Shown here: piece by piece, positions 4,367-62,677 of the stretch
Layout of the letters: every line of letters begins with the position of its first letter
Numbering within the stretch: position 1 is the stretch's first letter
Assembly (NCBI GenBank): GCA_963920765.1
Contig: OY987250.1
Location: 4,340,001 to 4,404,000, forward strand
DNA length: 64,000 bases
Direction: 5' to 3'
Source of the DNA: Ulota crispa
Taxonomy: Eukaryota > Streptophyta > Bryopsida > Orthotrichales > Orthotrichaceae
Translations under genes and position numbers: made by a program
The notes under the pieces: generated by a model
Told to the model about the DNA's origin: nothing
Seen by the model: the letters and a program-made list of their open reading frames with translations, nothing else
The model's database searches: none

Positions 4367-4614
4367 TTAACCCTTAAGTGCCCCACAAGCGATAAATGGG
4401 GAGCTCAGTTTTTAAAAATGTCCACGTTTTACTCTTATCCTCTTCTTAATGGTAAAGTCAAAGAACTTGTACTTTTTCATGTATTTTTAGGCATGTATCT
4501 ACCACCACTTAAAAAAATTCAAACTAATTGGCTCTACTTAGGTAATACTTTTATTAAACTAAGTACACAAGGATATGGATTTGAGTGAATATGGCCTGGG
4601 CGCTCAGGAGTTAA
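4367..4614. mobile_element. TTAA element A1 (piggyBac-like MITE)
   Basis: The left end is TTAACCCTTAAGTGCCCC and the right end, read on the opposite strand, is TTAACTCCTGAGCGCCC. TTAA flanks both sides. At 248 bp it is among the shortest of the family. Non-coding. It sits directly before the GC-rich 5' region of the CLU gene. Confidence 0.6.
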
Positions 4615-6692
4615 TTATTTTCCCATTTCAACCGACCGGCTGACTTAGTATTAACAGCCGGTTCGTCCCGGTCATTGGTCCGGCAGTCCCAGCCATACGA
4701 TCACTCTGGATAAGATCCCAAGAACCGAGGGACACGATCACCCCTCGTCATGCTCGACACAGGAAGGTACTGTCCTGTGCAGGTTCTCAGCACACCATAC
4801 TCAAAAGCCCGGTCGCATTCTGTCGACGGTAGCAACTGGTACCGACCGACCAACCTTCCGGTTGCCTTGGGGTCTAGGGTTTTTGGAGTGGACACCATCC
4901 GCACCACACAAGAGCCGAGGGGAGCTTGCTGGTGCGGATTTTTCCATCTCTCTCTCGTCGTTGCTACCAAAGCTTCGCAGCAGCCATCGCCGTGAAACGC
5001 ATTCAATTACTCCCTCACGGCCTTTTCTTCCTCGGTTCGTCTCTCTTACCTAATCCTTTTTGCTCAATTTCTGAAGTCCCGAGGTGCATTCTACTGATTC
5101 CTGAATGATTTGGAGTTTTCGGACAATTTTTATTTGAATGTGAGCATTGTTGGAGTTATTTGCGCCCTTCGTGAAGACGGTATTGAAATTTACTTCACCT
5201 AATCCTTTTTGCGCAATTTCTGAAGTCCCGAGGTGCATTCTACTGATTCCTGAATGATTTTGAATATATCAGACTTTGTGAGCATTGTTGGAGTTCTTTG
5301 CGCGCTTTGTGAACTCGTTGTTGAATCTTATATTGCGTTTGAATTCTTATGGTTGTGAGGAGATTGGTTAACGTTTGTGGTGTTGCAATGCATTGTTACG
5401 TGGATTTAAATTATTCCATTTCTATACTTTTGTCGGGGAATCGTTCGCAATTCTTTCAACATCTGTGTTGTATTTGGAAGATTTGAGCAGAATTTTATCT
5501 TTAGGCCTTTGTTTGGACGACGCTCTATCTTTGTTCGACAAGCATTCAAATTACTAATGTCAACGTGTGACAATTGGAATTTGGTAGAGGGAAAACGAGC
5601 TACTGCATTGCCTGAGGTGTTCGGCTTTTTTGAGACGTCTCGTGGTTTAGTATCATTGCAATGCCAGGAACTTTATTTACTGCAGATCATACATTATTAT
5701 AAACATGAAGAAAATGTAGTCAACATAATTCTGTTTGTGCGAATTCTTAAAAGTTATTTGACGCAATTTTGCTGAATATAGTATTTTCTTCATTGGAATT
5801 TTCATATTAATGGAACCTCTTGTTTTCAACCTGACTTTACTGGAAATGTGCATTTTTACTAACAGCATGGCCTTTGGCAAACTTGAGGAAACCCTACGCA
5901 CCTTCTTTGGTGTTGTAGCAGCCTTTTAATCAATTGACTACCTGAATCAACCATATTTTTTCAGAACGTCATTATCTTGGAATCAAATCGTAGAATGACG
6001 TTCTCTCTAAAATCAAAAATTTCATAGTTCCAATTGTTCCAAGAATCAATTTGTGGAGTGTCTTGTTACTGGCATTTTGCAATTTGATTGATTGAGGAGA
6101 AAAGCTTCCAAATATCTCTCACGAACAACAGCTTTCTTATTGAAGCTTGCTGTGTATATTTCCATGCGCAGGGTTTGCCACTAAGACCTGAACACAGTCG
6201 GACAAGTTTCTGAAGGTCGAAGATTGACGTGTTGCTCATGTAACCTACACTTGCGTGTGTGTATTGGCTATTGAGCCATCAGAATAAATTGTCAAAAAAA
6301 GGCAGGTATAGCTCCAACCTTTTATAGAAATAGAATTGAGAATCACTCAGAAGATCTTGATCATGTGCAACCATTTTTTTCCACTAATGCCATTCAGTAC
6401 AGCATCTGGAGTACGTGAAGAGGATTTACCTGATTACTGTAGTTATAGGTCTTTCTGTATATCCCATCTCGGGCTACTGTGATGGAACCTCTGGCAAATA
6501 GTGGTACAAAGAGTTACCATTTTGCAGGTTTCTGGCAGCTTCTTATCGTTGCTTTTTAGACCAAAGAGAATCGGTAGTGGTGAAGCATTCTTTTCCTGAG
6601 CGGGATATTGTTACAGTCAAATGCTTTTTGTTATTTTGTGATGATTTCGTGTAACTCTGGAAGAGTTGTTGCTATATCTTCAGGGCTTAGAA
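4615..6692 (+). promoter_or_regulatory. CLU upstream region and 5' leader with leader intron
   Basis: A GC-rich island (about 4620-5050) stands out from the AT-rich surroundings and probably holds the promoter. Short overlapping ORFs on both strands there have no recognisable product. A splice acceptor (atatcttcag) ends at 6683, ten bases before the CLU ATG, so a leader intron ends there; its donor cannot be placed with certainty. The leader also contains a tandem duplication at 5048-5330. Confidence 0.45.
5048..5330 (+). repeat. tandem duplication, about 148-bp unit, in CLU leader
   Basis: The segment beginning acctaatcctttttgc and running through gaagtcccgaggtgcattc occurs at 5048 and again at 5197 with few changes. 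Both copies also share the later tgagcattgttggagtt segment, so the whole unit of about 148 bp is duplicated head to tail. Confidence 0.75.
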
Positions 6693-9600
6693 ATGGCGGG
6701 AAAGTCCAGTAAAGGCAAAAGCAAGGGCAAAGGCAAAGCCGAATCAAGTGTTGGTACAGCGACAGTGGCTTCTAAAGAAGTTCAACCCCTTGTCAGTGCA
6801 ACGGGCCTTCCTGATCTGGTTTTGAAGAAGGCCCCTATTGTACCTGCTGTTCAACAAGCATTGGGAACGTCCAATGAAGATGTTGTTGCCGAGCTGCTTG
6901 AAGTGGAAACTGTGGCACCCGCCTCTGAGAAAACTGAGGAAAGCGAAGTAACAAGCATTGATGAGAAAAAATCGAGTTCTAACGAAGCTGAAACTCAGGA
7001 AGGGAGTGGCAATGGAGACGCGGATGGAGATGGTAAGGCTGGTTATTCGCTGATGACTCTAGTCTCTTGTCATGCGGGTTTGACCTAATGCTCCAGTTTG
7101 CCGAATGCTTCTCTGGACCGTTGGTTTGAGAAGTTTTTTGTTGTGATTTTCAGCAGAGCTATTGCTCTATCCAATTACTGTCAAGGGACCAGGTGGGGAG
7201 ACGCTTGAGTTGCAGGTACTTTACGCAGCAGTGTTTGGTTGAAGTCGTGTCCATTGTGACGACTATGTGCATTGCTTGAGGAAATTCTGGAGTTAACAAA
7301 GAACTTTATGGATTTACTTTTCTAGAGATACGCTTGTTGGGCCTCTTCTAAAGAGCTATGTGAAGGTCTTTTCGTATTGCATTAATTTTTTGCCTTACAG
7401 CATTCTACTGAACTCTGTAACAGGTCAATCCAGGCGACTCGGTCATGGATTTACGCCAGTTCCTTCTGGATGCACCAGAGACGTGCTTTTATACATGTTA
7501 TGATCTTATATTAAATTCGGCTGAGGGTGTTCGATATCACCTGGCGGAGTATCTTGAAATCGGCGAGGTTGCTGATATTAGTGCTGGAGGTTGTTCGTTG
7601 GAGATGATAAATGGTATATTACATAGCTCATTGTTAAAGGTTGCTTTTAAGGGCATCCCTGCGCAAGATTTTCTTTTTTGTAGTCCTGTAGAGTATGGAA
7701 TTTGTACTAGGTTCTAAATTTCTTCTTTGTGTTTCTGTGTATAGCCTTGTACGATGATAGGATGGTACGAGCTCATGTTCGACGTACAAGGGATTTGATC
7801 TCTACAGAGCTCATCCATTCTTCCCTGTCAACAGCACTTGCAGTTGAGTATGAAGCGAAGCAGGCTGAAAGTGCAGGTATATATCTCTTCATTTATTTGC
7901 CTGCATCGCATTAGGGCATGTTGACATCTCTTGCCTTGTTTACGTAACTTGCTTGCAGAGGTATTCAAGCTAGGAATTGACTTATGGATGTTCATGAGCT
8001 GCAGGCGAGGCTAAGGACAATTCTACATCCAAGGATAAGGCTGCTGGTAATTATTCAATCCTAGAGTAATGTTTCGGGAAGTAGTAAATCAGGGCTGAGC
8101 GGTCTATTCAGGAGTTGTTGCTTTTTGTTTTGTTCTTGTTCTATTACTGTTTGTGTCGTGTTGTTTGAGTCTAAACCCACTCGTCCTTAATGTGTCTCTG
8201 AGAGAAAACATCATACCCTCGATTTGTTATATTTGCAAAATTTCTCGTACTGTAAGTACCTTCCTTTGCTAAATTTTTGCTGTTGGATATCGAAATACAA
8301 TGCCTGACTTTGCTTGCCTTAATTTTCTGGGATGTTGTTATTGTGTCCTTTCTGATTTAACTGCAATTTGGAAACAGGATCCGTGAAGATAGAGCTAGCT
8401 GAGTTGGAAGGTGGCCTGGGGTTTATGGAAGATTCTTGTGGTCAATTGAGCTCACTTGTTACGCATCCTGGGTCACAAGAGAATGCGTGCGTGGAGACAA
8501 TTGCCTTCTCGTCATTTAATCCTGTCCCAGGATATCGAAGGTAGTTGTCAACACTGACTATTTGTGCACATGCACTGATCATGAAGTGAAGTTATTCACT
8601 GTTTCAGGTCAATTTTGTAAGATCGCTTGATTCTCTTGTAGAGAGCATTTTTAAGTTCAGATTTTGTGGCATTTTGTGAGGACAGGTTGCTAGGTGACCT
8701 CATTTATCTGGATGTGGTAACCGCTGAAGGCAATAGTTTCTGTATCACTGCACGCACCCGAGGATTTTATGTCAACTCAAGCAAGGATAACATTTTGAAT
8801 GCGGAATCAGCAACTCCAGCTGTTGAAGCCACGACTCTCGTTGGGCTGCTACGGGCACTGAGCGAAAAGTTTGTCTCGGGTATATTTCAAGTGCTGTTGT
8901 CGCTCTTCTATTATGATTTTCACCGAAACCTCTATTTCAGGAATGTTTGGGCAGAGAGGAAATGTCATGGAAGATGGTTTTAGCTGAATTTGTTCACTTC
9001 TTTGAATTCAGCATTTTGTTTCTTTTACTGATATCAATGCTCACTTGTTCCAGCACTCTGGTGCTGTATGATGAGCCATCTTCTTTTTGCTGACGCTCCT
9101 CTAGGTGATGACTGCAGCCGTGCTTGTAGTCATCATTGAAAGCCCAACTACAAAAATGAGAACGCTACTTGTCCTTGAATGAGATCCTGCTCGGCAAAAT
9201 TGTACGTTTCTATAGAAGTTTCTGACAAACATAGTTATGTCCAGGATTCGTGGCGATCTTAGACAAGAAGTCAACAGGGCATCCTTTTGAGAACGTTCCA
9301 GTCCTTTTGCCACCGAATGCTTGGCTTGGCCCACACCCTACTCCTCGTGAGTGATCTCTAACTTTTCGATCTTCTATTTTGTGATGAACCTGTTCAGATT
9401 TTTTAGTTTGAGGTATGTTATCCTGGAAGAGGAATTTTATGACGATTAATTTCATTAACGGTTTCTAGCTTCTTTAGAAACATATTGCCACAGTATAGTA
9501 TTAGAATGCTTCCTACGTAGCGGATGATTGCATTTTTGTATAAGAGGTAAGGGTGGTGCTGAGTTAGTTACGGTGTTTTGAGAGATTGCAGCGCACAAAA

Positions 9601-12600: not shown

Positions 12601-15600
12601 TGGTTCAATCGCTAAAGTTCTGTTCACGGCAGGGCGTACTACGAGAGACCCTCGATGAAAATGTCGGTGGAGCTATTGCTCACTTTTTCAATTGTCTAGT
12701 TGGACCGGAATCAGCAAAGCCAGTTGTAGAAGAAAATACAGAACCCAGCACGAAATCCGAAGTGACGACCACTTCTGTAAGTGACTATATCTTTGCGTAG
12801 TTGCTGTCACATTTCTTTGTCGGATTAGTTTTTTTTTTCCGCTTTTGTACAATTTTAGATCTCAAATTTTCAATTAACATCGCATGGTTTGGCTGCAGGA
12901 GGAGGACTCGTCAACAGAGTCAGCTTCAGCTGAGGCTAAACCGTCATACTTATGTATAACACCAGCTCTTGTCTGGTCTGACATTGAAGAGAGTGTGAAG
13001 TTCAAATACCAGGTATTGACATTTGCATGTTTTTATCTTACACCAGGGATTCTGAAATATTTAATGCACTCATTGCGTTATTGATGCGTGTATCAGTTTA
13101 TACGCAGGCCTTTTTATTTGCAAGCGTTTTGAGATGTCCTTTCTTAAAATTTTCATCTAAGTTGCTTATAATGAAAACTGTAGCAGTGGCAGACTTCTGA
13201 ACACCATAATCTGATACACGTTTCAAACCAATTCTTCCCTGCAGTTTGATTTGCCAAGCGACGGAAGATCAAAAGTGCGCAAGATATCTACTTTCCGAAA
13301 CCTCTGTCAGAAGGTAATGTATCTTTAACTCCAAATGTGCCCTGAATGCCCGCAATAGGCGTCATCTTTTTTTTGCACTTTTCAATGGCTGATATGGGGA
13401 CTTTCTTTTGAGTATATGCAATGTTCTTCATTAACTCTGGCGATATTAAATATATCCCCGTCTGCATTGTATTGTTGAATGTATAATAAATCAAACTGGT
13501 CAAAATAATGAAATATCTGTCTTTTTTGGGTTATGTTGAGATGCTATTTATGAATTCCTGTCACTTCCTTCATTTGACCTGCCTTGAGATATTGATTTGT
13601 ATACGTCCTGCGATCAGATTGGCGTTATGCTGGCAGCAAGAAAGTACGACTTCCAAGCAGAAACACCATTCCAAACGTCGGATATTCTGGATCTGCAGTC
13701 AATAGTGAAGCACTTATCCCCGGTTTGTGTAGACGCTCGTGACCTTTTGGAAAATGGAAAGCTGTGTTTGGCACAAGTGAGTTCCACGATCATCCATACA
13801 TTTTCCTTGTGAATCTGTAATTCCTTTATATGTATGCTTCTCCTTTGGATCTCTGTTCTTAGCAACTTCGTCTGTAAAAGCCTGCAGAATAGAGTTCATG
13901 TAGTATGTTTACCAATCTTATTCTATACACTAGAGCTTACGCTGTGGTAAACCGATTTTCTGGTGTTCCCGTCTAGAAATGTTGGTGACTAAAGTCCTGC
14001 TAGCCTCTAGTTTGATAATGAATGCGCTGTCTAATCACATAGTTTGATTCCAATTAAAATGTTTCAGGGCAAGTTGAATGAAGCATACGAAGCATTTTCA
14101 GAAGCATTTACAATCCTGCAGCAGGTCAGATTCAGTGTATTCTCAAAGTGATTTTCGTTTGGTTTCTTCTGCTTTAGATTGGTCAATCACTACTTGAACG
14201 ATGTGGTTTGAATAGCATGTTCTGAACTGCCACCTAAGTTTTTATTATGTATTGTGAACAGGTTTGTGGACCTATGCATAGAGAAGTTGCCAACTGCTGC
14301 CGGTAAATACTGCCTCTCTCCCGTAGTCTAGTACTTGTCTTTCTGTATTGTTGGTAATTCTGTCTGCAAAGGTGTTTCGAAAAGTTTTATCCGAGTAAAG
14401 TTCGTATTTTTTTTCAAAAATTTGTCTATGCTGTAGATGCCCTAATACGATTCTAGTGTTTTCTTTCCAGATATTTAGCAATGGTCTTGTACCATGCTGG
14501 GGACATGGCAGGGGCTATAATGCAGCAACATAAGGAGCTGATCATTAATGAGAGATGTTTGGGAGGTGATCATCCAGACACGGCGCACAGGTAACCCTTC
14601 ATACGATACAATTTTACAGCATAGAGGTTCTTCTTTTTTTGCAAATTGACGTGCTAGTAACCTAAGTGTAAAATCTCTTGATTATTTTCCTTGTATTTGT
14701 GCTGATGTTGGTGCCAGTAACCGAAACTGCATTTGTATTGTTGCACGATTATATGGAACTATGTCTCACTGCCTCCAATGTGTGCTGTGTTTCACCAGCT
14801 ACGGGAACATGGCCTTGTTTTATCATGGATTGAACCAGACTGAGCTTGCTTTACGGCACATGGCACGTACGTTGCTGCTTTTGAGCGTGTCCTGTGGATC
14901 AGACCACCCAGATGTAGCAGCTACCTTCATCAACATTGCCATGATGTACCAGGATATCGGCAAAATGAGTGTTGCTCTTCGATACCTGCAAGAGGCTCTT
15001 AAAAGAAATGAGCGTCTTCTCGGTGAACAGCATATCCAAACTGCAGTTTGCTATCATGCCTTGGCCATTGCATTTAACTGCATGGGAGCATATAAGCTCT
15101 CTTTACAAGTAAGTGTTCTCGAGCACGGCCCTGTTATTGTGTGCTCCAAACAAAACTTTCTACTGTAGTTTAGCCTTGCTTTCTCATACCTTCAGACTTG
15201 GACCTCATAACAACATCTGTGTTTCTTTCCTTCAGCATGAGCGCAGCACTCATAACATTTTACTGAAACAACTCGGAGAAGAGGATTCAAGAACCAAAGA
15301 CTCAGCCAATTGGATCAAAACATTCCAGATACGCGAAATTCAGGTGATTTTTCAATTCTAGCACCTCTATGCTCCTTCTGGATTGATCCAATTTATGGTT
15401 CCTTCATAGACGGGTCACATCTCCTCAATTATTTACTAGATGTTTTTGAAACGAATAAATCAAAAATGCTAATCGATCATTGTCTGTGTCCCTTGTAACT
15501 GCAGGCAAACGCACAAAAGCAAAGGGGCCAGCAGGCTGTTAGTGCTGCTTCCGCACAGAAGGCTGCTGCCGACGCTCTTAAGGTTCTTAATCTGCAACCG

Positions 15601-16431: not shown

Positions 16432-17578
16432 AGGCAGTCTCACTTTATTTTTTCTTTAAAAGTTCAGTTTTGCAGTTTTTTATGGAGGTAGGAGGTTGCA
16501 GGTGTAAATCAGTTGCACGCTACGATTTGCTATTGCTTTTTCCCGATACATGACTGAAAAGCAGGGGCTATTGAGATCCTCACCTATTCGGCATTTTTTT
16601 GCTGGTATAGATCGAATTAGGCGTAGAGCTTTTTTAGTCCATTAAAATTTGCTCTTGCACGATTTGAGTGCAAGAGCTCACGAGTTGGAACGTCGAGGAT
16701 TTTGCTGAGGCCGTTCTGTCCGTGCTCTTGTTGAATCCTCACAAGCCTGTTACTCACAGTCCCTCACTTGCATTACTACTTTATTCAACACTCTGTATTC
16801 TCATCACTTCCTTCACAATTTCACGTACTGAGACGATATTCACTCTTAGTGTCATCCTTGTCTTGTATGACAAGAAAGCGCAAAGATCAACTAGTGCTGC
16901 TAAATTTAGCAAAAGGTACAAATCGTGTATATATGGGGATGTTAAAGTCGAATTTTAGCCAGTTCAGCTACTCATGAAAAATCACATTTGGGAATCACTG
17001 GTAAAGACTCACTACGCCAGGAACAAACAGCCTTGACTTCCTTTACAATTTACAAAAACAACACATTTGAAATGAACTACTACCTTAGTTAGGGGCGGTT
17101 CACCCTGAGTTCTCTGAGAAATCAGTTGGACCAAGGTTGAAGAATTGGGAATTGGAACTTGGCAACTCACAGCACATCCCAAAGTCCCACATCCTCGTCC
17201 ACTGCATTGCACAACCCAACTTTCAATCTAGGTCTCACCAATTTTTGGCATGCCTTTCTTTATTATTCCTTTTTGCCCTTAATAAAGCAACAAAAATGGG
17301 ATCTCAAGATGAGGTGGGAAATTGCATAGATGGGATGTGGGACATAGTGTGCCCCTTATATTATGGACAATGTGCAATCAAGAGAAATGAAGAAAAGTAA
17401 AAAGTGTAGCAAGGGTTACTGCACCTTTACACGCAATCATTGGCCTACACCAAGTATTTACATTTACTTTTGAAAAGCTCTCAAAATTCTTGTCCCCAAT
17501 CCTTGCTCTTCAAACATGCCTCACATATAGTCAATTGATCAATCATCAAGTGGGCTATAGGATAAAGCCCACTAAACT
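16432..17578. other. intergenic region downstream of CLU
   Basis: Contains the CLU 3' untranslated region and ordinary intergenic DNA. Small open frames exist but none resembles a protein. No paired terminal repeats were recognised. The polyadenylation site cannot be fixed from sequence. Confidence 0.5.
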
Positions 17579-21300: not shown

Positions 21301-22743
21301 GGTTGCCTTGTTGACTCATTGCCTGGCCACTTGGAGGCACATGCAACTCTCTAAACACTAAGATTTCACATGGTTTACGACTTGCATGCCGCAGCTTTGT
21401 TGTTGTAACCAGGCCTTTTAAAAGAAAAAATTGGAATAATAATTGATAATACTTATTGTACTATTAATAAGTATTTGTACATGTAAAATTTCAGGAAATT
21501 AGTGTGGGATAACCTAAACGCAACATTTAGTGTAGTTATCTAAATAGTCTTTCTGAAGACAATCTCTCTTATTGGAAGGAGATGCTTTATTTATACCTAG
21601 AAAAATTTCAACTTGTTAACCCTTAAAATTTTCAGCCATTTTGAAGGTGTTTTGGACCTCAATTTTGTAAGTTATGAAAGGGTGAAGCTTAAAGAATGAT
21701 GAGTCATTTTTAGGCCAAAGTAATCGTAAGATCTTATAGAAAGCCAAGTCCTTTTCATCTCTGCAAAGTTTGGGATCCAAGGGTTTGATTGGAAGATTAT
21801 AACAAAAATGTAAATGGTACTACAAGGAAACTAATGTTTTGGAGTAGTTGAAATTGTGCTTTGATTGGCTCTTTTGGACACACAACATTTTAAAAAGTTA
21901 GCATCTTACGCTTATTCTCAAGGTAATCAAGTTCCACACGTATAGAAACAAGTCTTGTATTTTTAGGGTAAAAAATGAGTGAGAAAATGGTCTTGCAATA
22001 GTGACCACTTTACCCTTAAATTTCAAAAACTGTGAGTAAAATTGAAGACTTTCTCAAATCTAGGGCCAAAATTTAACACTACAACTCCAAGACCACCCAT
22101 GGTTTGAATTTTTTTGTAAATTCAATGGTGACTCTTCTTCTAAATTTGAAAACACTCTTACATAGCTAACTTGTTTATTTTTCAAATGAGTCAAAATTCA
22201 AGTGACTCTTGACATTTCTAAGGTCATAAATAGCATTTCTAAAAACCAATCGACCCAATTTGGGTCGATGAAAAATTTAAGGGTTAAATGAGGTTGACAC
22301 AATTGTGCCATCAGTATCAGTGACACAGTCCTCTGAGGTTTGGGGGGAGTGGGTTTCTGGGCGATTGCAGGTGGAGGAATTGCGCACTCAAAACGAGATT
22401 CTTCGCACTGTAATGGCACTTTCCCTTGTGACAAGTTTTGCTAGTAAAATATGCGAAATTATTTGCCTCTCGTTTCCTCTTCCTTTATCATTTTTTGTCA
22501 TTTTTGGTCATTTTTTTAGTAGGTTTTCGTAACATGTTTTTTTTTATGAAACTTGGGTAATGAATGCAGCTTTTGCGGCACCAAGAGAAGATTGAGGATC
22601 TGGAGCGTGAGAACGCGGTGCTTCGTGAACAGTTGAATGTTAACGGCATCTCTGGGTCTCCGGGTATTAGTAAAGGTTTGCTTTCTAGAGAAGCGTGTAC
22701 TCAGTGCTTTGACTGTCGAAGGTTGTCTCGGCGAAGAAGTTAA
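18373..22743 (+). CDS. glycine-rich protein with C-terminal coiled coil, 7 exons
   Basis: Exons: 18373-18520, 19203-19285, 20147-20222, 20716-20735 (20-nt microexon), 20930-21112, 22371-22409, 22570-22743. All joins are GT-AG and in phase, giving 240 residues. In order: an N-terminus with MEGGGSSARNLSLSPLKLRN; a glycine-rich segment (VGFGCGLGIGVGVP); an IPGVAQVMGA segment; a second glycine-rich segment (AGIGCGVGVGHGFGIG) running into LALKPG; a Ser/Pro/Thr-rich linker; and a charged heptad-like coiled coil (VEELRTQNEILRT through EKIEDLERENAVLREQL); ending with Cys-rich CTQCFDC and a basic tail. I recall land-plant proteins of unknown function with the same glycine-rich blocks around an ALKPG motif; no biochemical role is known to me. 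Introns 1, 3 and 5 each contain a MITE. The start is the first ATG before the conserved block. No expression evidence is available. Confidence 0.75.
18564..19134 (+). mobile_element. family B MITE, composite copy in intron 1
   Basis: Begins gggaaaatttcatggatacc and ends with the complement at 19134 (ccatgaaaatttccc). The left arm is present two to three times in series (18564, about 18728, about 18830), so this looks like elements inserted into or recombined with one another. It lies wholly inside intron 1 of the glycine-rich gene. Confidence 0.75.
20355..20658 (+). mobile_element. family B MITE with perfect 9-bp target duplication
   Basis: A 304-bp palindromic element: gggaaaatttcatgataccc at the left, the complement ending tttttccc at the right, with the inner gcatgccac and gtaacgtgcac segments also pairing. 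It is flanked by TTGATTTTT on both sides (20346-20354 and 20659-20667), a perfect 9-bp direct repeat. Nine-base duplications are typical of the Mutator superfamily. It sits in intron 3 of the glycine-rich gene. Confidence 0.85.
21122..21147 (+). repeat. short telomere-like (CCCTAAA) run
   Basis: Three adjoining CCCTAAA-type units lie just after the donor of intron 5. The reverse orientation (TTTAGGG-type units) occurs near 22848-22885, after the stop codon. Such short runs (telo-boxes) are common near plant genes and do not indicate a chromosome end. Confidence 0.6.
21616..22287. mobile_element. TTAA element A2 in intron 5
   Basis: The left end TTAACCCTTAAAATTTTC and the right end, opposite strand, TTAACCCTTAAATTTTTC are near-identical inverted repeats. 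TTAA flanks both ends. The 672-bp body is non-coding. It lies wholly within intron 5 (21113-22370) of the glycine-rich gene. Confidence 0.85.
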
Positions 22744-23368: not shown

Positions 23369-23782
23369 TACCATCAAATCCAACATCAAATTGAGAAGAT
23401 GAGAAAAGGCATTGTAGTTGACAACGTTGCTAATAAGAAAGTATAAAAGTCTTTCCCAATAAGCCAAGATACTTTCATATCTCATTCAATGTTTGAAAAA
23501 TCCTTTGCGACTACAATACAAAATACTTTTTTTGTATTTGGAATGGGTCCACACCTTTACTACATTTGAAATCAACAAAGATATTGGAATATGATCAATG
23601 CGGTTATAGTGAGCTATTTGAGATCCCAAATTAAAACTTTTTGTTGGTTGCAAATGCCCAATTATATAGCTACATATATGTTATTCAAGGGTTGAAATAT
23701 TAAATGGTCCCTCCAGAATGTGTTACAAATACTATACCAAATCCAAACACTCATCAACAGATAGCACAAAAAGAAACCAATT
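23369..23782. other. dispersed repeat region, no gene
   Basis: A segment around 23520-23665 (cacacctttactacatttga, gatcaatgcggttatag, gagctatttgagatc) occurs again in inverse orientation at about 28480-28620. This is a dispersed repeat of unknown class. No coding sequence recognised. Confidence 0.45.
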
Positions 23783-28181: not shown

Positions 28182-28678
28182 AACGCGTTATTCGTTAAAT
28201 TGGGAAAACGCTTACATTTTGGGACTTTTGAAGGTTCCAAGAGGCCTCCTGAAATCAAGCTCAGCGTTTTTTTGGGTACATGTGTCCTCATTTGAGAGGA
28301 GGAATTTGCAAGGGAAAAAATCTTAGTGGCTTAGACTCAATCAGATACTTTTGAATATGGTTTAAGTTGACTTTTTGGGTTTAAAGTGGAGTACAAAATG
28401 GTACCTCCGTTTTTCCCAATTTAACTCTTAAAGGACCGCTCTACGTATTGCATAGTAAATACGCTGCCGTATAACTGGCATTTGCTACCAATAAAAAGTT
28501 TTGATTTGAGATCTTGACTAGCTCACTAGGACCGCATTGATCTATATTCTAACTTCTTTGTTGATCTCAAATGTAGTAAAGGTGTGGATGCATTCAAATA
28601 CAAGAAAATACGAAATTCTATATTGGCCGCAAAGGGCTCTTCTGTCATTTAAGGATTAACAAATAACGCATTAAAATT
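28182..28678. mobile_element. family C MITE C5, probably with nested insertion
   Basis: The left end aacgcgttattcgttaaatt matches a right end at about 28660-28678 (ttaacaaataacgcatta). The inner family boundary (tttttcccaatttaac) is already reached near 28425, so the segment 28430-28655 looks like a later insertion. That segment contains the dispersed repeat also found at 23520-23665. Confidence 0.5.
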
Positions 28679-28819: not shown

Positions 28820-29473
28820 TTAACCCGTAAATGCCCAAGGCCTATCTCAGCTTCTTGGAATTTTCATGAAACTAAACGATCAAATAACTTTTTCATAAAT
28901 TTCATCAAAGTTTTTTTCAATTGTAACCGTACAAATTTAAACTAAACACATCAGAGTTTACATGGAAAAAGAAAACTTAACTATATCATTTATAGTTTGA
29001 AAGATTATAATGTTTGAACATAAGGGTGTTGAAACTGAAAAAGTGACTTGAAGTCTTCTAATCCTCATTTCACATGTCAAAACTAAAAAGTTGGTCACCC
29101 AAAAAAAATGAGGTTTAAGATCATTACACAAATAATTGTAATCAAAATATGGCTTTAAAAATCTACTCCCGTATTTCTTTTAGATGGGTTTCTAACGTGG
29201 ATTTCTCTCCAAGCTCTAGTGTATTTGAGGCTCATTTTCAAGATCTTCCAACACTAAAAAAACTCAAGATTACAATGGACACCCTCATACAAAAACTTGA
29301 GTAGAAAAATCATCAACTTTCATTTTCAAAATCAGATTTTTAATGTTGAAAATAGACTTCAAAACAAACTCATATTGAAAAAATTATTATGAAAATAGTG
29401 ATTTGATGATGTTTATTAATCTTCAAAGTTTTGTAGAGACCCAAATGTGGTCACTTCGGCATTTAGGGGTTAA
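28820..29473. mobile_element. TTAA element A3
   Basis: Left end TTAACCCGTAAATGCCCAAG; right end on the opposite strand TTAACCCCTAAATGCCGAAG. TTAA at both boundaries. 654 bp, non-coding. The interior is related, in inverse orientation, to A18 (62035-62677); for example both share the 'gattataatgtttgaaca' region. Confidence 0.85.
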
Positions 29474-29549: not shown

Positions 29550-30068
29550 ATAACCCCTAAAGGACCAAGCCCACTGCCACTTTTGGGGAAATGAGTAGGA
29601 AGGTAAGAAAAAAAGAATTTTTGGAAATTCAACTGTAAGATCTTGTCCTAGACTATAGGGGGTACTTGTGGGAAACTTTCAGCTCATTCTAGAAGTAGAG
29701 GAGTGAGATATTGACATTTGAAATGGAATATTTTTTCTTCCCTGCTGCCCAAAAATTTCAGAAGCCTTTGACAGCTTCTATATTAAAAAAAAATGCTCAA
29801 AGCAAAGTTGAGGTTTATTTTTTCCATGTAGAAGACCAAGTTAGGTATGTGTGGGAGAATTTTCAAATGAATTGGAGGTGTGGGTCATACTTTGTAAAAT
29901 CCTACAATACCGTAAGGCCATGAAATTTGCATATACTCTAGGCAGAATTGGAGAATTTATGTAAAATTCAGAAATATGAATTACTTTGATCCAAATGGTG
30001 AAATCCAAGGAATCTTAGTCTACTACAACTTGGAAAAAAAAAGTAAAAAATGGTCCTTTAGGAGTTAA
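29550..30068. mobile_element. TTAA element A4, internally deleted
   Basis: Left end (A)TAACCCCTAAAGGACCAAG and right end AATGGTCCTTTAGGAGTTAA. The left boundary tetranucleotide has mutated to ATAA. Its first part matches the left part of the 948-bp A13, including the 'ctactacaacttggaaaaaa' segment, then jumps directly to the right terminus, so it is an internal-deletion derivative. Confidence 0.8.
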
Positions 30069-30079: not shown

Positions 30080-31000
30080 TTATCCCCTAAAGGACCAACT
30101 GTCCCTTCAAGGGACAAATGGATTTTGGGCATGGACCTATAGCTATTATACTTCTTTTGGTTTTTTGAAACTTTTATTGAAGGTGAGGAATTCAAAGATC
30201 TACATGGGCATCTAAATATTTCTTCATTTTGACATTTATTGAAGAAGTTCTGCATAAATTTCTGAAAAAGGGAGAGGATGGGCAACCCAAAAAAAAAATC
30301 AAAATTGTATTTATATACAATTTTAAAATCTGCAATTGGTTCTTTAGATTTATACAAATGTGGGAAGCTTTGAATCATGTAATTTTGATTGATGAAATGA
30401 AAGTTATGAGATGTTTTAGTTTGCAGATAGGTATGAGACTCCCAAACCGCATTCCTTTTGCCCCTTGTAAACTTTGGTGCTTTACTTTTTTGAGCTCTTT
30501 GTGTACTTTTTTTTTACTTTTCTTTTTCCAAGTCGTAGTAGAGTAAGATTCCTTGGTTTCTACCATTTGGATCAAAGTATTGTAGATTTCTTAATTTTAC
30601 AAAAATCTTCCAATTTTGCCTAATGTATGTGCAAATTTTATGGCCCTCTGGCATTGTAACATTTTACAAAGTATGATTCACACCTCCAATTCATTTGAAA
30701 GTTCTCCCACACTTACCCAACTTGGTCTTCTACATGGGAAAAAAAAACCTCAACTTTGCGTAGAGCAATTTTTTTGATATAGGAGCTGTCAAAGGCTTCT
30801 GAAATTTTTGGGCAACATGGAAAAAAACTTTATCTTTCACTTTAGATGTCAATATCTCACTCCTTTACATCTAGAATGAGCTTATTGTTTTCCACAAGTA
30901 CCTCCCATAGTCTAAGGCAAGATCTCATGGTTGGATTTCCAAAAAAGACTTTTTTTCCTACCTTTCTACTCATTCCCCAAAAAATGATAGTTGTGAGTGA
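30080..31000. mobile_element. TTAA element A5, right end lost
   Basis: The left end (TTATCCCCTAAAGGACCAAC) is followed by sequence matching the right part of A13 in inverse orientation, then the inverse of the A13 left part (ccatagtctaaggcaagatc, ttctactcattcccc). The distal terminus is not recognisable and the match fades near 31000. Non-coding. Confidence 0.6.
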
Positions 31001-31021
31001 CTTTCATAGGAAAAGAAAGGT

Positions 31022-31253
31022 TTAACCCTTGAACGTCCTGAAAGCCCTTTGCGGCTATATGTATGGTCATGTATACAAACGTATTTGAGCTGTTTTGAGG
31101 GCTTTCCAAGTTTTTTTATGCACCCATCATCATACAACCCTTCAATATGTACGGTTGTAACACTTAATTTCCAGTTTATTCAAACTTCTGAATAGTGGTT
31201 GCGACCGTATTTGGTATTGTATCTCCAAAGCCCAATGGATGTTCAAGGGTTAA
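31022..31253. mobile_element. TTAA element A6, short
   Basis: TTAACCCTTGAACGTCC at the left; GGATGTTCAAGGGTTAA at the right, an almost perfect 17-bp inverted repeat with TTAA at both boundaries. 232 bp, non-coding. The CCCTTGAACG terminus is a subfamily distinct from CCCCTAAAGG. Confidence 0.8.
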
Positions 31254-31465: not shown

Positions 31466-32419
31466 TTAACCCCTAAAGGACCAAGTGGTTGTTCAACAGC
31501 CACTTGAGAACTTGGGTAGGGTCAAATGGAGTTAATTTTTATTGGATGTTCTCAAAATTGTTACACAGGGTGTAAATATGTATCTCCCAAGTGGAAATCT
31601 AAATTTTTCCCCAATCAGATGTTTGGTTCAAAAATTATGCTGCCCAAAAGAAATTGGGCAGTTTGAGCATCTTTGGAGAATCTTATGCTAAAACTCTAAT
31701 CAACTTTTGAAATTTGACAAGTATGTTACTAAAAAAAACATGGTGTACAATTGTCAAAATAATGATAATTTTTGAGCTCTCACATCACATTTTGAAGGGG
31801 GTCAAACTTTGTTAACTATGTTCAGGCAGTTTCAAGAAAAAAAAATTCCTCTAATTTCAAGCCATATTATCTTTCAAAGTATAGATCCAAAGCTCTTGAA
31901 ACTTTTTTTTCATATATCCCAAATGTTTGTCTCCAACTTTTCATCATTAACATTTCAAACAAAAGACTACCACATTGCACAAGAAATCATGAAAGAATGA
32001 CTGATGTATTGCCAATTCACTAAACCTCATTGCATTGGAGGGTGATTTAGAATAAGCTAGACTTTATATTTGCATCTGAAAATTTTCATAAGTGAACCAA
32101 ACATCATATGCTTGTGAATGGTCAAAAAGCTCAAATTTGTGTAGAGTAAAAATTTTACTCTAGGAAGGCTCAAAGCTTGTTGACCTTGTTTTGCAAGAAT
32201 GAAAAAAGTTGTTTTTCTCACTTCAAACGTTATAATCTTACAATCTGCGCGGTCAAATGGGCTGATTTTTTTGCACATGTTGGTTTATTGGTTTTACAAA
32301 ATTTTGTATGGTTGAAATTGAGAAAAAAAGTTTTTATTTTTTATTTTGGGCAATGCATTAAAAGTTGGCAGTTTCTAAGATTTTTTCTCAAAAAACACCC
32401 TCGATCTTTTAGGGGTTAA
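31466..32419. mobile_element. TTAA element A7
   Basis: TTAACCCCTAAAGGACCAAG at the left and GATCTTTTAGGGGTTAA at the right, TTAA on both sides. 954 bp. Open frames inside are short and not conserved between copies, so it is non-autonomous. Confidence 0.85.
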
Positions 32420-32848: not shown

Positions 32849-33304
32849 TTAACCCCTAAAGGACCAAACCCCTTTTTGGGATAAATGGGATTTCGGGCAT
32901 GTACTTATGGCTACAATATTTTGCATGATTTTTTGAAAATTTTATAGATGATAGGGAATTCAAAGATTTACATGGGCATTTAGTTTTTTTCTTGATTTTA
33001 ACGTTTATTGAAGAAATTGAAAATGAATTTATGGAAAATGGGCGAGATTGGGTAGCAAAAAAAAGTTTAAAAATTGCATTTTTAGAAAAGTTTTTGGGCT
33101 GCCTAATCTTGCCCGGTTTTGGAAATTCATTTAAAACTTCTTCAATAAACCTTAGAATGAAGAAAAAATTAGATGCCTACATAGATATTTGAATTCCACA
33201 CCTTCCATAAAAGTTTCAAAAAATCACAAAAAGTAGATTAGCTGTACGTACATGCCTGAAATCCATTTGTCCCCCAAGGGGACAGTTGGTCCTTTAGGGG
33301 TTAA
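32849..33304. mobile_element. TTAA element A8, full palindrome
   Basis: TTAACCCCTAAAGGACCAAA at the left; TTGGTCCTTTAGGGGTTAA at the right. Both halves are copies of the same family end: 'gggcatgtacttatggctac' on the left is the inverse of 'agctgtacgtacatgcctga' on the right. The element is therefore a 456-bp hairpin made of two right ends. TTAA at both boundaries. Confidence 0.85.
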
Positions 33305-34469: not shown

Positions 34470-35021
34470 TTTACCCCCTAAAGGATCAATCCTGTTTTAT
34501 ACAAAAAACACTCAAAACCGTCATTTCTAGTCATTTGATCCCAAGAACAAGTTTGTTCAATTTTTGTAAAAGTGTAACTGTAAGATCTTGCTTTTGAATT
34601 ACACAAGAAGACATGGTGAAATTTTTGTGATGTTTGATTATACAAATTGAGAGATGTGACCATTTGAAAACAAAATCTGTAGTAGTTATTGCAATTCAAA
34701 AATCAATGTATTTATATGATACCATAATGTAATTGTTTAACACATTATTATTTTGCTTATACTCCAATGAATGGTCCTGCCTTCATTGATTGCCATGGAG
34801 AGAAGTCCACAAAAAATGACATGCCCAACTTGTCCCTTCAACTAAAATTCTTCTATAATCTCCCAAAATTCTTGAACTATAAATCCGGTTCAATCAAAAT
34901 ATATATATATACCCCACATAACCCTTGAAAATCTACATTATAAATAAAAAATTTTAAAAAATGATAAAAATTCCCAATAGTATTAGCCTGCTCAAATCCA
35001 TTTTGTCCCTTTTGGGGTTAA
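34470..35021. mobile_element. TTAA element A10, degenerate
   Basis: Left end TTTACCCCCTAAAGGATC; right end on the opposite strand TTAACCCCAAAAGGGAC. Both termini carry mutations, including the left boundary (TTTA). 552 bp, non-coding. Confidence 0.55.
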
Positions 35022-36603: not shown

Positions 36604-36605
36604 AT

Positions 36606-36620: not shown

Positions 36621-36633
36621 GTCAACAAGAATC

Positions 36634-45459: not shown

Positions 45460-45790
45460 TTAACCCCTAAAGGACCATGGCCTTTATTTTGTCAAAAGAC
45501 ACTCAAAACTGCCACCTCTATGGCAAAGAGTAAAAAAGTTTAAAATGATGCATTTTGCATATCTAACCATAGGATCTTGTGCTAGACTACTATAAGAATG
45601 TGTCATACAAAACTCAAGAACTTTGATTGCACAGATTGGAAGATATATGCATTTAAAGTGTAAAAAAAAACATTTTTTGCACCTTGCTTGACTAGATTTT
45701 TTAACTTTGGACATTTTTAACTTAAAATTTTTGCACCACAGAGTTTGGAATTCTATTTTTGCATGGTGGAAGTTGAGTTGGAAATCTTGG

Positions 45791-45824
<34 letters not shown>

Positions 45825-46391
45825 CATTCTTTAAAAAAACATTAGGTAGAAGAAGGTATGAGATTGAACAAAAACTTAAAATGCTAATAACCTTGCAATG
45901 GAACTGAAACGCAATAATCTCAATGGCAAGATTGTTCTAGAAAGCAAGCTTCACCCTCTCCAACTTTTTTTTTTGAAATAATGTTAAACTTGCATTCAAA
46001 AATGAAGTTCATAAGTTATTTTTTCAAGAAGATGCTTGAGTTGCCCAAAAAACAAGATTGTTCATAACTTTCTCATAACTAGTCCAAATGGAATGAATCA
46101 ACCCTTCAGATGTAGACAAAGATATAGTCTATAAGAAAAAAAATTAAAAAAAAATTCAAGTGTTTACAAGAATTTTCTTTGCTGCCCCTAGTCCCCAAAT
46201 TTGTGCTTATTTGGGCATAACTTTTGCTCCCTTGGCATTTATTGGAAGAAAAAAAAATTATTCCCCAAAAGCTAATGTGTTTTTCTATCTTCAGAAAAAG
46301 TTTCAAAAAATTAGGACGAAAATTGAGGCCATAGGTACCTACCCAAAATCCCATTTGTCTCCCGTAGGAACAATGGTCCTTTAGGGGTTAA
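45460..46391. mobile_element. TTAA element A12
   Basis: TTAACCCCTAAAGGACCATG at the left, ATGGTCCTTTAGGGGTTAA at the right, TTAA on both sides. 932 bp. Closely related to A15 in inverse orientation (shared 'tttgtcaaaagacactcaaa' and 'aagttcataagttattttttc' segments). Contains a poly(A) run at 45799-45820. Non-coding. Confidence 0.9.
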
Positions 46392-46830: not shown

Positions 46831-47778
46831 TTAACCCCTAAAGGATCGTGGCCTTTTTCTGTGAATATCAGTGTAAAACTGTCACTTTTGGGAGAGTGAG
46901 TCAAATAGAAAAAAAAAACTTATTTTTGGAAAATCCAACTGTAGGATCTTGGCCTAGACTATGGGAGGTACTTCTTGGGAAAATTTCAGCTCAATCTAAG
47001 TGTTGAGGAGTGAGATATTTACATCCAAAGTGAAGAAAAAAGTTTTTTTCTTTACTGCCTGAAATTTTCAGAAGCCTTTGTCCATTGATAACTCAAAAAA
47101 ATTACTCTACTCAAAGTTGAGGATTTTTTTTTATCATGTCCAAAACCAAGTTAGGTATGTGTGGGAGAATTTTCAGATGAATTGGACATGTGGACCATAC
47201 TTTGCAAAATCCTGCAATGCTGGAAGGTCTAGAATTTTACAAATACACTAGGCAAAATTGGAGGATTTATGTAAAATTTAGAAATCTGAATTACTTTGAT
47301 CCAAAAGGTGAAAACCAAGGAATCTTAGTCTACTACAACTTGGAAAAAAAAAGAGTAAAAAACCAAGTACACAAAGAGCTCAAAAAAGTAAAGCAACAAG
47401 TTTTACAAGGGGGAAAAGGAATGGAGGTTTGGTAGTCCCATACCTACCTACATACTAAAACTTCTCATAACTTTCATCTCATTTATCAAAATTGAATGAT
47501 TCAAAACTTCCCAAATATATAAAAATCTAAAGAACCAATTTCAAAAAAATAAATATATATTCATTTTTTTTGGCTGCCCGATAGTCCCATATTTTTAGTT
47601 ATCCATGCATAACTTCTTTAATAAATGTGAGAATGAAAAAAAATTACATTCCCACATAAATTTTTGAATTCCTCACTTTTAGTAAAAGTTTCAAAAAATC
47701 ACAAAAAGTAATTTAGCCATAGGTACATGCCTGAAATCCCATTTGTCCCCCAAAGGACAACGGTCCTTTAGGGGTTAA
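46831..47778. mobile_element. TTAA element A13, reference full-length copy
   Basis: TTAACCCCTAAAGGATCGTG at the left; ACGGTCCTTTAGGGGTTAA at the right; TTAA at both boundaries. At 948 bp it is the most complete member of the subfamily that includes A4, A5, A8 and A14. No long conserved frame, so it is non-autonomous. Another orphan right terminus (gcttaggggttca) lies upstream near 46521-46533. Confidence 0.9.
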
Positions 47779-49403: not shown

Positions 49404-52362
<2,959 letters not shown>

Positions 52363-53226: not shown

Positions 53227-54473
53227 TTAACTCCTAAAGGATCACGCCCATTTTTTTGTGAAAATCACTAAAAACTGCCATTTCTAGGAGGTTTAGTAGA
53301 AAGGGGTTTTATATTTTGTTTTTGGGAAATCCAACTATAGGATCTTGCCCCACACTAGAAGAGGTACTTATGAGAAAAAAATCAGCTCATTCTAGATGGA
53401 GAGGAGTGAGATATTTACATTTGAGGTGAAGGGAAAGGGTTTTTTTCCCTTAATGCTAGTAAATTTCAGAAGCCTTTGACCACTCTTACATGAAAAAAAT
53501 TACTCTACACAAAGTTGAGGTTTATTTTTTCCATTTAGAAGACCAAGTTAGATATGTGTGGGAGAATTTTCAAATCAATTGGAACTATACAACACATGGG
53601 GAAAAATAGTCAGTAAAAAAAAAAAAAAAAAAAGAGTCAAATCATGAAATTGTTAAGAATTTAGTTATTAAAATGAAAAATGCAAATCCCAACGGTTGTA
53701 ATGTTGTAATAAACAATCTGCTTCCTTAGGTTTAGTTTTTTTTTCAAAATAATGAAAATTGACTAAAATATAGGACTTCAAAGTTTATTTTAGAGTAGAG
53801 AGTCCATAATTGCTTGCAAACAAAAACTCCTCATAACTTTCATCTCATAGATTGAAATTGAATGATTCAAAGCTTCTCACCTATTAAAAATTCTAAAAAA
53901 CCAATTTCAAATTTTAATTTAAAAAAAAACACAAATTTCATTAGGAGGAATTTGGACCCCCAAAGAGGCCCCTTCCCCCAAATCCATGGGAGCTTTGGGA
54001 ACACCTTCCACATGGGCAATGTGTTGCAGACCAGGCTGGCACTACGTTGACAACATCAGCCTGTATTATTTTTTTATTTTTTATTTTTCAAAAAAAAATC
54101 AAAAAATTTCTTATTTTTTTCTAAGACTTTTTATTTTATTTTATTTTTAATTAAATTTTCTGACGACCAGCACGGGCTGGTTTTCAACATCTAGAAAAGA
54201 AAAACTCACAGCCCCTTTGGGGGTCCAAATCCCTTGTAATGTAAAGAAGTTTTTGGGCTACCCAGCCAGACAGTCCTCCCCAAATTTTCATAAATTCATG
54301 CATAACTTCTTCATCAAATATCAAAATGAAGAAAAAATTAGATGCCCACATAGATCTTTGAATTCCCCACCTTCAATAACAATTTCAAAAAGTCACACAA
54401 AGTAGTTTAGCTATAGGTACATGCCCAAAGTCCAACTTGTCCCTCGAAGGGACAATGGTCCTTTAGGGGTTAA
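53227..54473. mobile_element. TTAA element A14 with a nested MITE
   Basis: TTAACTCCTAAAGGATCACG at the left, ATGGTCCTTTAGGGGTTAA at the right, TTAA boundaries. 1,247 bp, longer than its relatives because of an inner foldback (53947-54232) and a poly(A)-containing stretch. The outer parts match A13. Confidence 0.85.
53947..54232. mobile_element. nested foldback MITE inside A14
   Basis: ggaatttggacccccaaaga at the left and the complement of ctttgggggtccaaatcc at the right form a terminal inverted repeat of about 20 bp. The interior is AT-rich with a GC-richer arm (gaccaggctggc / gaccagcacgggctgg). No clear target duplication. Confidence 0.7.
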
Positions 54474-55273: not shown

Positions 55274-56202
55274 TTAACCCCTAAATCTTTGAGTGTCCCC
55301 TCGGGGACAAATGGGATTTTGGGTAGGTACCTACAGCCTCAATTTTTGTCTTAATTTTTGAAACTTTTTTTGAAGATAGGAAATCACATTAGCTTTTGGG
55401 GAATATAATTTTTATTCCCATCAATGCCCAAAAGCAAAAGTTATGCCTAGATAAGCAAAAATTTATGCAAATTGGGTAGCAAAAAAATTTACAAATACTT
55501 CAATATTTTTAATTTTTGTTTCTTTTGTCATAGGTTATAGTTTTTTCTACATTTGAAGCTTTGATCCGTTCCATTTGGACTAGTTATGAGAAAGTTATGG
55601 ACAATCTTGTTTTTTGGGCACCTCAAGCATCTTTTTGAAAAAATAACTTATAAACTTCATTTTTGAATGCAAGTTTAGCAATTTTCCAAAAAAAATTGTT
55701 AGAGAGGGTGAAGTTTGCTTGCTAGAACAATCTCACCATCTGGATTATTGAGTTCCAATTCCATTGCAAGGTTATTAACAATTTAAGTTTTTGTTCAATC
55801 TCATACCTTCTTCTACCTAATGTTTTTTTTAAGAATGAAAATTAAGTATTTTTTGTTTGATTTTTTTCCAAAGATTCTCAACTCAATTTCCCATCATACA
55901 AAAATAAACCTCAAAACTCTGTGGTGCAAAAATTTTAAGTCAAAAAAGTTCAAAGTCAAATAGTCTATAATCATGCAAGGTGCAAAAAAGTCTGTTTTTT
56001 ACACTTTGAATGCAAATATCTTGCTATTTGTGCGGTCAAAGATTTTCTATTTTTGTTTCCACATTCTTATACTAGTCTAGTACAAGATCTTACGGTTAGA
56101 TATGCAAAAAGATCAATTTTCAAAAAAATTATTCTTTCCAATAGAAATGGCAATTTTGAGTGTTTTTTTGACAAAATAAAGGCCCAGGGATTTAGGGGTT
56201 AA
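55274..56202. mobile_element. TTAA element A15
   Basis: TTAACCCCTAAATCTTTGAG at the left, CAGGGATTTAGGGGTTAA at the right, TTAA boundaries. 929 bp, non-coding, an inverse relative of A12. Confidence 0.85.
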
Positions 56203-58632: not shown

Positions 58633-59529
<897 letters not shown>

Positions 59530-60622: not shown

Positions 60623-61358
60623 TTAACCCTTAAAGGACGGGCCTACAACCATGAATTTTCCATGGAATTGCAATCATCTTATAGGAATTATTTTGGTAAT
60701 ACAATCAACATCAAAATTCAATATTATAATTTTAGTAAAAGAAGGTATGTGCATACAACATGTATAAAAAAGGTTCATAAATTGTGGTGTAAAATTGAAA
60801 TTATTGTAAATTTTTGAAGCAAATGCTAAAGGAATTCATATAAATTATAAAAATGTATTGAATTATGCCAAATTTTTTTATTGTGGATGTGAATCATGAT
60901 GAAGATTATCATGATGGAATTTTGCTTCCCATGGTAAAATTAGAAAAAGTAACTGTTTTGTGGTAATAGGTACTCAACTTGTAACAGTAATAAAATTTTC
61001 AAAACTGAAATCTTTTCAAAATCTTAAAGTACAAGGAGAAATTAGATTTGGTAAATTGTCTATAGCTTGTTATGCTCAAACTAAAAACATGTCATTTTAA
61101 TAACTTAAATTGAGTTGGGGTAAAAAGATCCTTAGAATTCAAAATACTCTACATAGTGGTGCATCTTTACTACTCAATTGACAAGTGGGACCCTTTTGTG
61201 AACATTGTGCATGCAAAAATTATCTATCTACATGCTCTAGAATTGCACTATTCATATCCCAATGGAATCTTAGATGAAAGATAGTGTTATTCCACTTTGA
61301 GAGCACTTTTCAGTCATCCAAAAGCCACAAAATGGCTCTTGTGACGTTGAAGGGTTAA
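60623..61358. mobile_element. TTAA element A17
   Basis: Left end TTAACCCTTAAAGGACGGGC; right end on the opposite strand TTAACCCTTCAACGTCAC. TTAA at both boundaries. 736 bp, non-coding; an 87-codon frame (60554-60817) crosses its edge and is not a gene. Confidence 0.8.
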
Positions 61359-61764: not shown

Positions 61765-62034
61765 TGTTTTTTTATATGTATATTTGCATGTGTTCAGTAC
61801 ATATGGTATGCATATATTAGCTGTCCGCGCAAGTAGCAGGAACTCTGTCAGAGTGGAAGTAAATAAAAATCAGGTTTCACTTTCTCTTCGAGGTGGAAAT
61901 AAAAGAACTGCAAGGTAGGAGGCTCATGAATGGACCATCTATGAGAAAGAGCATATGTGGAAAAATCGGGTTCGCTTAGCAATCTGGAAGTATTTTTGGT
62001 AGAGAGCCGGAAAAAGAAACAGTTCTACAGCCAT

Positions 62035-62677
62035 TTAACCCCTCAACTCCCAAGGGGTTTAAACTATGTCTCTCTAAATCTTATTCAAGGATGTTCACAG
62101 TTTCATTAGGATTTTTTTAGTGGTTATTGTTACATTTAAATTCTTATTGAAGTCTAGTTTCAACATCAAGAGTTTGATTTTGGAAGTGAGTTTGTCTATT
62201 CAAAATTTTGTGCAAGGATGTCCATTGCAAATCTTCACTTTCTAGTGTTGAAAGCTCTTGGAAATGAGCCCCAAGTACACTAGAACTTGGAGAAAAAATC
62301 ACATTAAAATTTCATTTAAATTTTTTGTAGAATAGATTTTGAGAAGCCATAAATTGATTGGGGTTATGCAAGTTATGCTTTACATAGTCATATTTTTTGG
62401 TACGCTCAATTTTAGGTCTGAGACGCAAAAAGAGGATTGAAAGACTTCAAATCACTTTTTGAGTTTTAACACCCTCATGATCAAACATTATAATCTTTCA
62501 ATCCATAGGAGATATTGTTGTGATTTCTTTTCCTATGTGATCTATAACATGTCTACCTTGAATTTGTACGGTTATGCTTCAAAGAAAATTAATAAGATTG
62601 ATCAAAATGTAGGCATTTTGTTCAGTTTCAAACAAATTATGAGATACTCCAAAATTCCAAGGGCATTGAGGGGTTAA
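62035..62677. mobile_element. TTAA element A18
   Basis: Left end TTAACCCCTCAACTCCCAAG; right end on the opposite strand TTAACCCCTCAATGCCC. TTAA at both boundaries. 643 bp. The interior is an inverse relative of A3. Non-coding. Confidence 0.85.

Follow-up and report, generated by a model that had tools for sequence, protein, structure and literature searches.

The 64,000-base stretch of the moss Ulota crispa analysed here (contig OY987250.1, positions 4,340,001 to 4,404,000; hereafter the window) carries a family of short repeats with CCC-type inverted ends that are bounded on both sides by TTAA. These repeats are almost certainly non-autonomous members, of the miniature inverted-repeat transposable element (MITE) type, of several native piggyBac families of this land plant, presumably mobilised by piggyBac transposases with a DDD catalytic triad that are encoded elsewhere in the genome. 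Their placement in the piggyBac superfamily, already proposed in a first-pass annotation made from the letters of the window, is supported by the TTAA target duplication, by the CCC ends and by a piggyBac transposase domain (PF13843, DDE_Tnp_1_7) that lies between such ends in longer elements of the same genome (275 Mb, 157 contigs).

The window has 12 TTAACCC and 13 GGGTTAA motifs, which extend from 4367 at one extreme to 62677 at the other. As a bare count this is the less striking measure (25, against a mean of 9.75 and a maximum of 18 in the 100 first-order Markov shuffles that served as the chance baseline for window ends). TTAA-adjoining ends within three mismatches of CCCCTAAAGGACC number 21 against a shuffled mean of 0.03 and maximum of 2, and those within five mismatches 37 against 4.2, which confirms the TTAA-bounded, CCC-ended family described in the first-pass annotation. 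The ends combine into 26 candidate pairs, many of them mutually alternative, from which 13 non-overlapping elements of 232-1,247 bp (8,890 bp in all) were chosen, TTAA at both borders being a condition of selection. A BLAST search of the window with a library of 28 elements, comprising these 13 (which match themselves by construction) and 15 from other loci, gave 17 merged intervals including damaged copies, which cover 10,825 bp or 16.9%; the earlier figures of 17-18 elements, 13 kb and 20% are qualitatively right but somewhat too large. No partner within the window was identified for the ends at 34242, 35021 and 42472.

Four of the 13 elements (those starting at 4367, 31466, 45460 and 55274) have full-length matches to copies at other loci, in alignments that stop at the TTAA borders or within a few bases of them. 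For three (21616-22287, 31022-31253 and 60623-61358) the compared loci yielded no second copy, and the remainder show partial matches. The profile search with PF13843 (116 of 528 candidates scored genome-wide) gave no match in the window, and neither did tblastn with 58 piggyBac proteins, all 58 of which matched the control locus L045; the statement that the window holds no transposase is thus upheld by both searches. In short length, high copy number, lack of a transposase gene and precise shared ends at unrelated sites, the window elements have the properties of MITEs.

The same ends recur across the genome. There are 8,154 exact copies of TTAACCCCTAAAGGACC (reversed control, 0) and 9,597 of CCCCTAAAGGACC counted without requiring TTAA (reversed control, 3), and TTAA directly precedes 8,154 of the latter (85%). 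The broader TTAA-bounded motif TTAACCCYTNADNGNCC occurs 30,183 times (reversed control, 6), which corresponds to about 15,000 elements provided that both ends are kept in each. Strict TTAACCCYTNADNGNCC ends number 12 in the window, where they are thus 1.7 times as dense as in the genome on average; when the window share of 16.9% is scaled by this factor, a rough figure, extrapolated from one window, of ~10% of the genome filled by such elements is obtained. The inverted termini start with CCC (CCY), as is expected of piggyBac.

The length of the target duplication was read from empty sites. A search with the joined flanks of the 13 window elements, in which 40 of 7,573 candidates were scored, resolved empty sites for 45460-46391 alone, because one high-copy repeat dominated the scored candidates. 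The joined flanks of this element have at least 42 matches in the genome (45 listed), 40 at 89-92% identity and two at 77-79%. Two other matches in the search crossed a junction by only 17 and 8 bases and were left uncounted. Eight of the 42 were aligned, and all eight have CCTTAAA at the target, where TTAA is present once and nothing longer is duplicated; the target duplication at this insertion is therefore exactly TTAA. Together with the 85% of CCCCTAAAGGACC ends, this is the 4-bp duplication characteristic of piggyBac; a duplication extending beyond TTAA, which the first-pass annotation had named as contrary evidence, was not encountered at this one insertion. A further empty-site candidate, for L049:8662-9578, is a 72% repeat copy in L043 and is supportive, but its target TTAA is not intact. 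For the element at 45460-46391, the 40 candidates scored (of 3,903) comprise 39 other long matches at 90-91% and one piece of 50 bases, so that none of them is a near-identical sister. Its flanks belong to an unclassified host repeat that, as judged from the same joined-flank matches, is present in very many copies.

High-copy MITEs of this size in plants are, as a matter of general knowledge, usually of the Tourist (PIF/Harbinger) or Stowaway (Tc1/mariner) type, and such elements could lie in a TTAA context by chance. Tourist elements duplicate 3 bp (TWA) and Stowaway elements TA. A duplication shorter than 4 bp leaves the outer bases of TTAA free, yet the great majority of CCCCTAAAGGACC ends carry the whole tetranucleotide, and a single TTAA stands at the empty sites of 45460-46391; the TTAA flanking the 13 window pairs, as a search condition, is no evidence in this matter. 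Neither a TWA nor a TA duplication was found, the empty sites refute both types for the 45460-46391 family, and we consider this alternative exceedingly improbable.

The evidence for piggyBac is completed by the transposase-bearing elements. PF13843 has at least 120 matches in the genome (best E 1.3e-73), a lower bound given the share of candidates scored, and no match in 14 control genomes. Two loci, L039 (3263-8290) and L041 (3497-8523), align over a single block of 5,029 bp at 90.5% identity, with PF13843 inside and unrelated flanks; the block runs from the left border, which reads TTAA in L039 and TTCA in L041, to one base beyond the right TTAA. In a genome search with the 5,027-bp element, the whole query (positions 1-5027) was matched at 88% by a third copy on contig C8, whose borders read TTAACCC on both sides (TTAACCCCTCATTGC and GAAGGGTTAA); the search also returned a relative in fragments on C11 and some weaker matches to parts of the element. 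Three full-length copies of ~5.0 kb are thus present on three contigs, with TTAA at five of the six borders and PF13843 between TTAA-CCC ends, the arrangement characteristic of piggyBac. This transposase-bearing element is of the kind that the first-pass annotation had predicted, as an autonomous partner, to lie elsewhere in the genome. As far as a search aimed at PF13843 can tell, the long TTAA-CCC elements encode this domain, and the transposase of another superfamily, which that annotation had named as contrary evidence, did not come to light.

The other superfamily that duplicates TTAA is Kolobok, which uses another transposase. Its target duplication agrees with the borders described above, but its termini are 5'-RR (both points from excerpts of PMC9587614) and those in the present genome are 5'-CC, and the long TTAA-bounded elements here encode PF13843. 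Kolobok is refuted on these two grounds for the families tested, and its chance of explaining the window elements is negligible.

The stop-free frame of L019 matches the solved structures of piggyBat (E 2.6e-24) and of Trichoplusia ni piggyBac (E 7.6e-20), and its aspartates align in register with D268, D346 and D447, whose roles are taken from an excerpt of PMC7351741. Among 33 domains, made up of the 30 best PF13843 matches together with L045, L049 and L050, 21 retain the DDD triad expected of piggyBac; L045 reads DDN, and D to N accounts for 14 of the 17 single triad changes. The domain of L047, which retains DDD, is interrupted by a GT...AG interval of ~270 bp that, judged by eye, is consistent with a probable intron. 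Candidates for the C-terminal Cys-rich zinc-binding domain of piggyBac are a Cys/His-rich stretch downstream of it in another frame (L047 5825-6010), which is below the Pfam cut-off, and a stretch visible by eye in P0001 and P0003.

Protein searches returned 16, 25 and 17 matches, of which those that carry an organism name are all animal (Solenopsis, Galleria, Elysia); the closest relatives are sequences without a name, 39-69% identical, most of which come from contigs only a few kb long. A tree of 62 rows was built from 34 sequences of this genome and 28 of 41 proteins, with a midpoint root for drawing. All 34 genome rows cluster with 13 unnamed proteins in a group of 47 (support 99/95) that excludes the two named insect rows, and within this group the genome rows fall into three main groups and not into one clade. 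Compared with piggyBac (IFP2) from the moth T. ni, the elements share the TTAA duplication, short CCC-type inverted ends and DDE_Tnp_1_7 with its aspartates in the same register; they differ in size (~5-7.5 kb here, 2,472 bp for the moth element in an excerpt of PMC10140906), in their subterminal sequences and in the probable intron within the L047 domain. The same domain is found in piggyBat, which is the best solved-structure match for L019, and in vertebrate PGBD-type elements. Some of the present ends (CCCTTCATTGCC) we take to resemble vertebrate piggyBac-like ends. MITEs are also present in the genome of the ciliate Blepharisma, in whose description piggyBac is a frequent term (22 mentions; PMC9942856). 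There they are reported to be linked with DNA elimination in the somatic nucleus, unlike the ordinary resident repeats described here.

In addition to the three-copy element, other transposase loci carry recognisable ends. Twelve loci were extended, L039-L041 for a right end already visible and the others mostly for having few stops, and CCC ends are found on both sides in seven of them (L039, L040, L041, L043, L046, L047 and L050), two of which have a decayed border (TTCA in L041, TTGA in L046). L043 has ends (CCCCTAAATGCC) of a common short-element type, L039 and L041 have the end type CCCCTCATYGCC, and L048 and L050, which belong to one tree group, have CCCCTGAGCGCC. The ends of L046 (CCCATTAAGGATC and CCCTTTAAGGACC) fall in one similarity group with those of L049 (TCCTTTAACGACC) and L045 (CCCTTTAGCGACC), and of the end types read, those of the L046 group most closely approach the AAAGGACC type of the majority of short elements. 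On sequence grounds, this distribution suggests that each transposase clade may have its own end code. Two candidate borders were rejected: L046:8315, at first sight the right end of an autonomous element, is part of a short element of its own (7349-8315), the true right end of the long element being likely at 7347-7350, and L050:129 as a long-element start seems to be part of a short element at 129-810, so the long element is taken to start at 807.

Several observations weigh against the reading given at the outset. Among the 12 extended loci, three have a right end only (L045, L048 and L049), two have no recognisable end (L042 and L044), and three (L039-L041) were themselves picked for a visible right end. 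In five of the seven two-ended loci, the two ends were paired because they resemble each other in one copy; they differ at up to 4-5 of 16 positions, and chance pairs (in L042, L045 and L049) did as well. Exact CCCCTAAAGGACC ends surround a transposase in none of the loci read, AAGGACC occurs at one L046 end only in the L045/L046/L049 group, and the short and autonomous elements share sequence, as far as seen, at their ends only, so the assignment of transposases to short elements is drawn from end types. In-frame stops are present in 31 of the 33 domains, and only 10 of the 120 PF13843 rows are stop-free.

Such damage to most transposase copies, the lack of exact CCCCTAAAGGACC ends in the loci read, and the lack of clear ends in L044 and L042 also favour a different account, in which the short elements are piggyBac-derived but the mobiliser of the majority AAAGGACC elements has been lost, or lies in unread or unassembled sequence, and is not among the loci read here. 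This account, which we regard as improbable, is opposed by the three copies of one element that hold PF13843 between TTAA-CCC ends and by the ends of the other loci, which lie in the same motif space; moreover, the loci read represent only about 30 of the 120 domain matches. Under the preferred reading, in which the short elements are mobilised by piggyBac transposases encoded elsewhere in the genome, full-length elements of ~5-7.5 kb would supply DDD transposases that would recognise the CCC-type terminal inverted repeats, excise the element and reinsert it at TTAA. By analogy with known piggyBac biochemistry, short elements devoid of a transposase gene would be mobilised in trans, excision would be seamless and hairpin-mediated, and amplification may proceed via replication-coupled or gap-repair copying.

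The decay of the long elements has a distinct pattern. L039 (3263-8289) and L041 (3497-8522) differ by 417 transitions, 60 transversions and 3 gap columns in 5 kb, and the transitions affect 99 of 268 CG, 115 of 313 CHG and 203 of 1,649 CHH sites (directions unpolarised, background from one copy). This CG- and CHG-biased divergence of the C-to-T type is consistent with methylation-based silencing and decay, and methylation-driven C-to-T decay may explain the many stops and the D-to-N changes. Four pairs of short elements show lower transition/transversion ratios (0.86-3.1) and have few CG or CHG sites; these are mostly changed too, so the bias is not limited to the long elements.

Ends are also found paired around one shared TTAA at 457 places in the genome (reversed control, 0), as at L050:807-810 and L046:7347-7350. 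If ends were independent, 116 to ~202 such pairs would be expected, depending on the assumed TTAA density, and candidate explanations for the 2-4 fold excess are nested insertion into a border TTAA, clustering or composite units. The majority end CCCCTAAA holds CCCTAAA, which we take to be the plant telomere unit, and the elements have spread thousands of such near-telobox motifs.

The individual elements and fragments of the window are as follows.

4367..4614: TTAA-bounded non-autonomous element, 248 bp, ends CCCTTAAGTGCCC / CTCCTGAGCGCCC; second copy at L043:8426-8671, 86%, full length.

21616..22287: TTAA-bounded element, 672 bp, ends CCCTTAAAATTTT / CCCTTAAATTTTT; counted as a member on its ends, as no second copy exists among the compared loci.

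23527..23666: fragment akin to 28421-28659, 86% identity.

28421..28659: TTAA-bounded element, 239 bp, with weaker ends CTCTTAAAGGACC / TCCTTAAATGACA; pairing less certain (4 mismatches, alternative partners possible).

28820..29473: TTAA-bounded element of the AAATGCC type, 654 bp, ends CCCGTAAATGCCC / CCCCTAAATGCCG; 71% to 62035-62677 across 549 bp.

29573..30050: fragment of the 46831-47778 family, 81%.

30080..31015: damaged element of the 46831-47778 family, reversed, one border TTAT; 79% across 936 bp.

31022..31253: TTAA-bounded element, 232 bp, ends CCCTTGAACGTCC / CCCTTGAACATCC; palindromic flank AAAGGT/ACCTTT; no second copy among the compared loci.

31466..32419: TTAA-bounded element of the AAAGGACC type, 954 bp; full-length copies in L002/L003 (one place), L004, L007 and L046, 81-87%.

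32849..33304: TTAA-bounded element, 456 bp; its 13-bp ends are identical, and it has long internal inverted repeats.

34478..34850: internally deleted relative of L050:7893-8786, 69-76%.

45460..46391: TTAA-bounded element of the AAAGGACC type, 932 bp; the insertion with known empty sites.

46831..47778: TTAA-bounded element, 948 bp.

53227..54473: TTAA-bounded element, 1,247 bp; 83% to L005/L006 across ~703 bp.

55274..56202: TTAA-bounded element of the 45460-46391 family in opposite orientation, 929 bp; 82%.

60623..61358: TTAA-bounded element, 736 bp, ends CCCTTAAAGGACG / CCCTTCAACGTCA; no second copy among the compared loci.

62035..62677: TTAA-bounded element, 643 bp, ends CCCCTCAACTCCC / CCCCTCAATGCCC.

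The window also contains a retroelement at 36472-41084, with zinc knuckle, aspartic protease, RNase H and integrase zinc-binding pieces in separate frames, and at 41995-43676 a large inverted repeat with 290-bp arms that are 93% complementary and 1,102 bp apart, adjoined by more inverted repeats. A tandem repeat at 17576-17954 is open on both strands (SSSSKY on the plus strand, YTWMMS on the minus strand). Pieces of a TPR-repeat gene (14650-15168) and of a CAP-domain gene (25891-26424) are present, as is a core histone domain at 58864-59529, presumably a histone H3 gene by its sequence; 50003-50371 has no Pfam match and to our eye looks like a piece of a cyclin-dependent kinase. Elsewhere in the genome, 46 of 48 psaA/psaB matches lie outside the plastid contig C157, as fragments on large contigs (C1-C10), and are probably plastid DNA inserted in the nucleus. 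The psaA and psaB of C157 itself have as their best matches the PDB chains 8htu, 6l35 and 7ksq, photosystem I structures that we take to be from the moss Physcomitrium patens, with lower scores for the matches that follow; this agrees with a land-plant, probably moss, host.

Most records of the piggyBac superfamily are from animals, fungi and protists, and the present case is that of a known superfamily in an unexpected host and on an unusual scale, rarely documented in land plants. No bryophyte piggyBac family is described among the matches listed from the open-access full-text literature searched, an absence that is weak evidence because only open-access papers were covered. The first-pass remark that such elements are hardly reported from land plants fits this literature, yet it needs qualification, since excerpts from reviews place piggyBac-like elements in 'plants', without detail, and a repeat table in a fern genome paper lists 1,230 PiggyBac hits (0.00%). 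The 'piggyback' of a moss-genome paper is expression piggybacking, a Physcomitrella paper discusses the moth piggyBac vector as untested in moss, and moth piggyBac has been used for marker excision in rice and chrysanthemum.

A wider interpretation, which we offer tentatively and hold to be possible without favouring it, is that these elements represent a deep, diverse and long-resident bryophyte piggyBac lineage, with several clades that have their own end codes, inherited within land plants, with MITEs that make up about a tenth of the genome, and active recently enough to provide a putative native seamless-excision TTAA transposon. Plant repeat pipelines that lack a piggyBac class may misfile or miss elements of this type. 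The elements described here are a source of native plant ends and candidate enzymes, and, because transposase clades and their end sequences are recorded side by side, a resource for the study of their co-evolution. With ~30,000 native TTAA-bounded ends and more than 100 transposase relics in one moss genome, piggyBac is a superfamily able to thrive in land plants.

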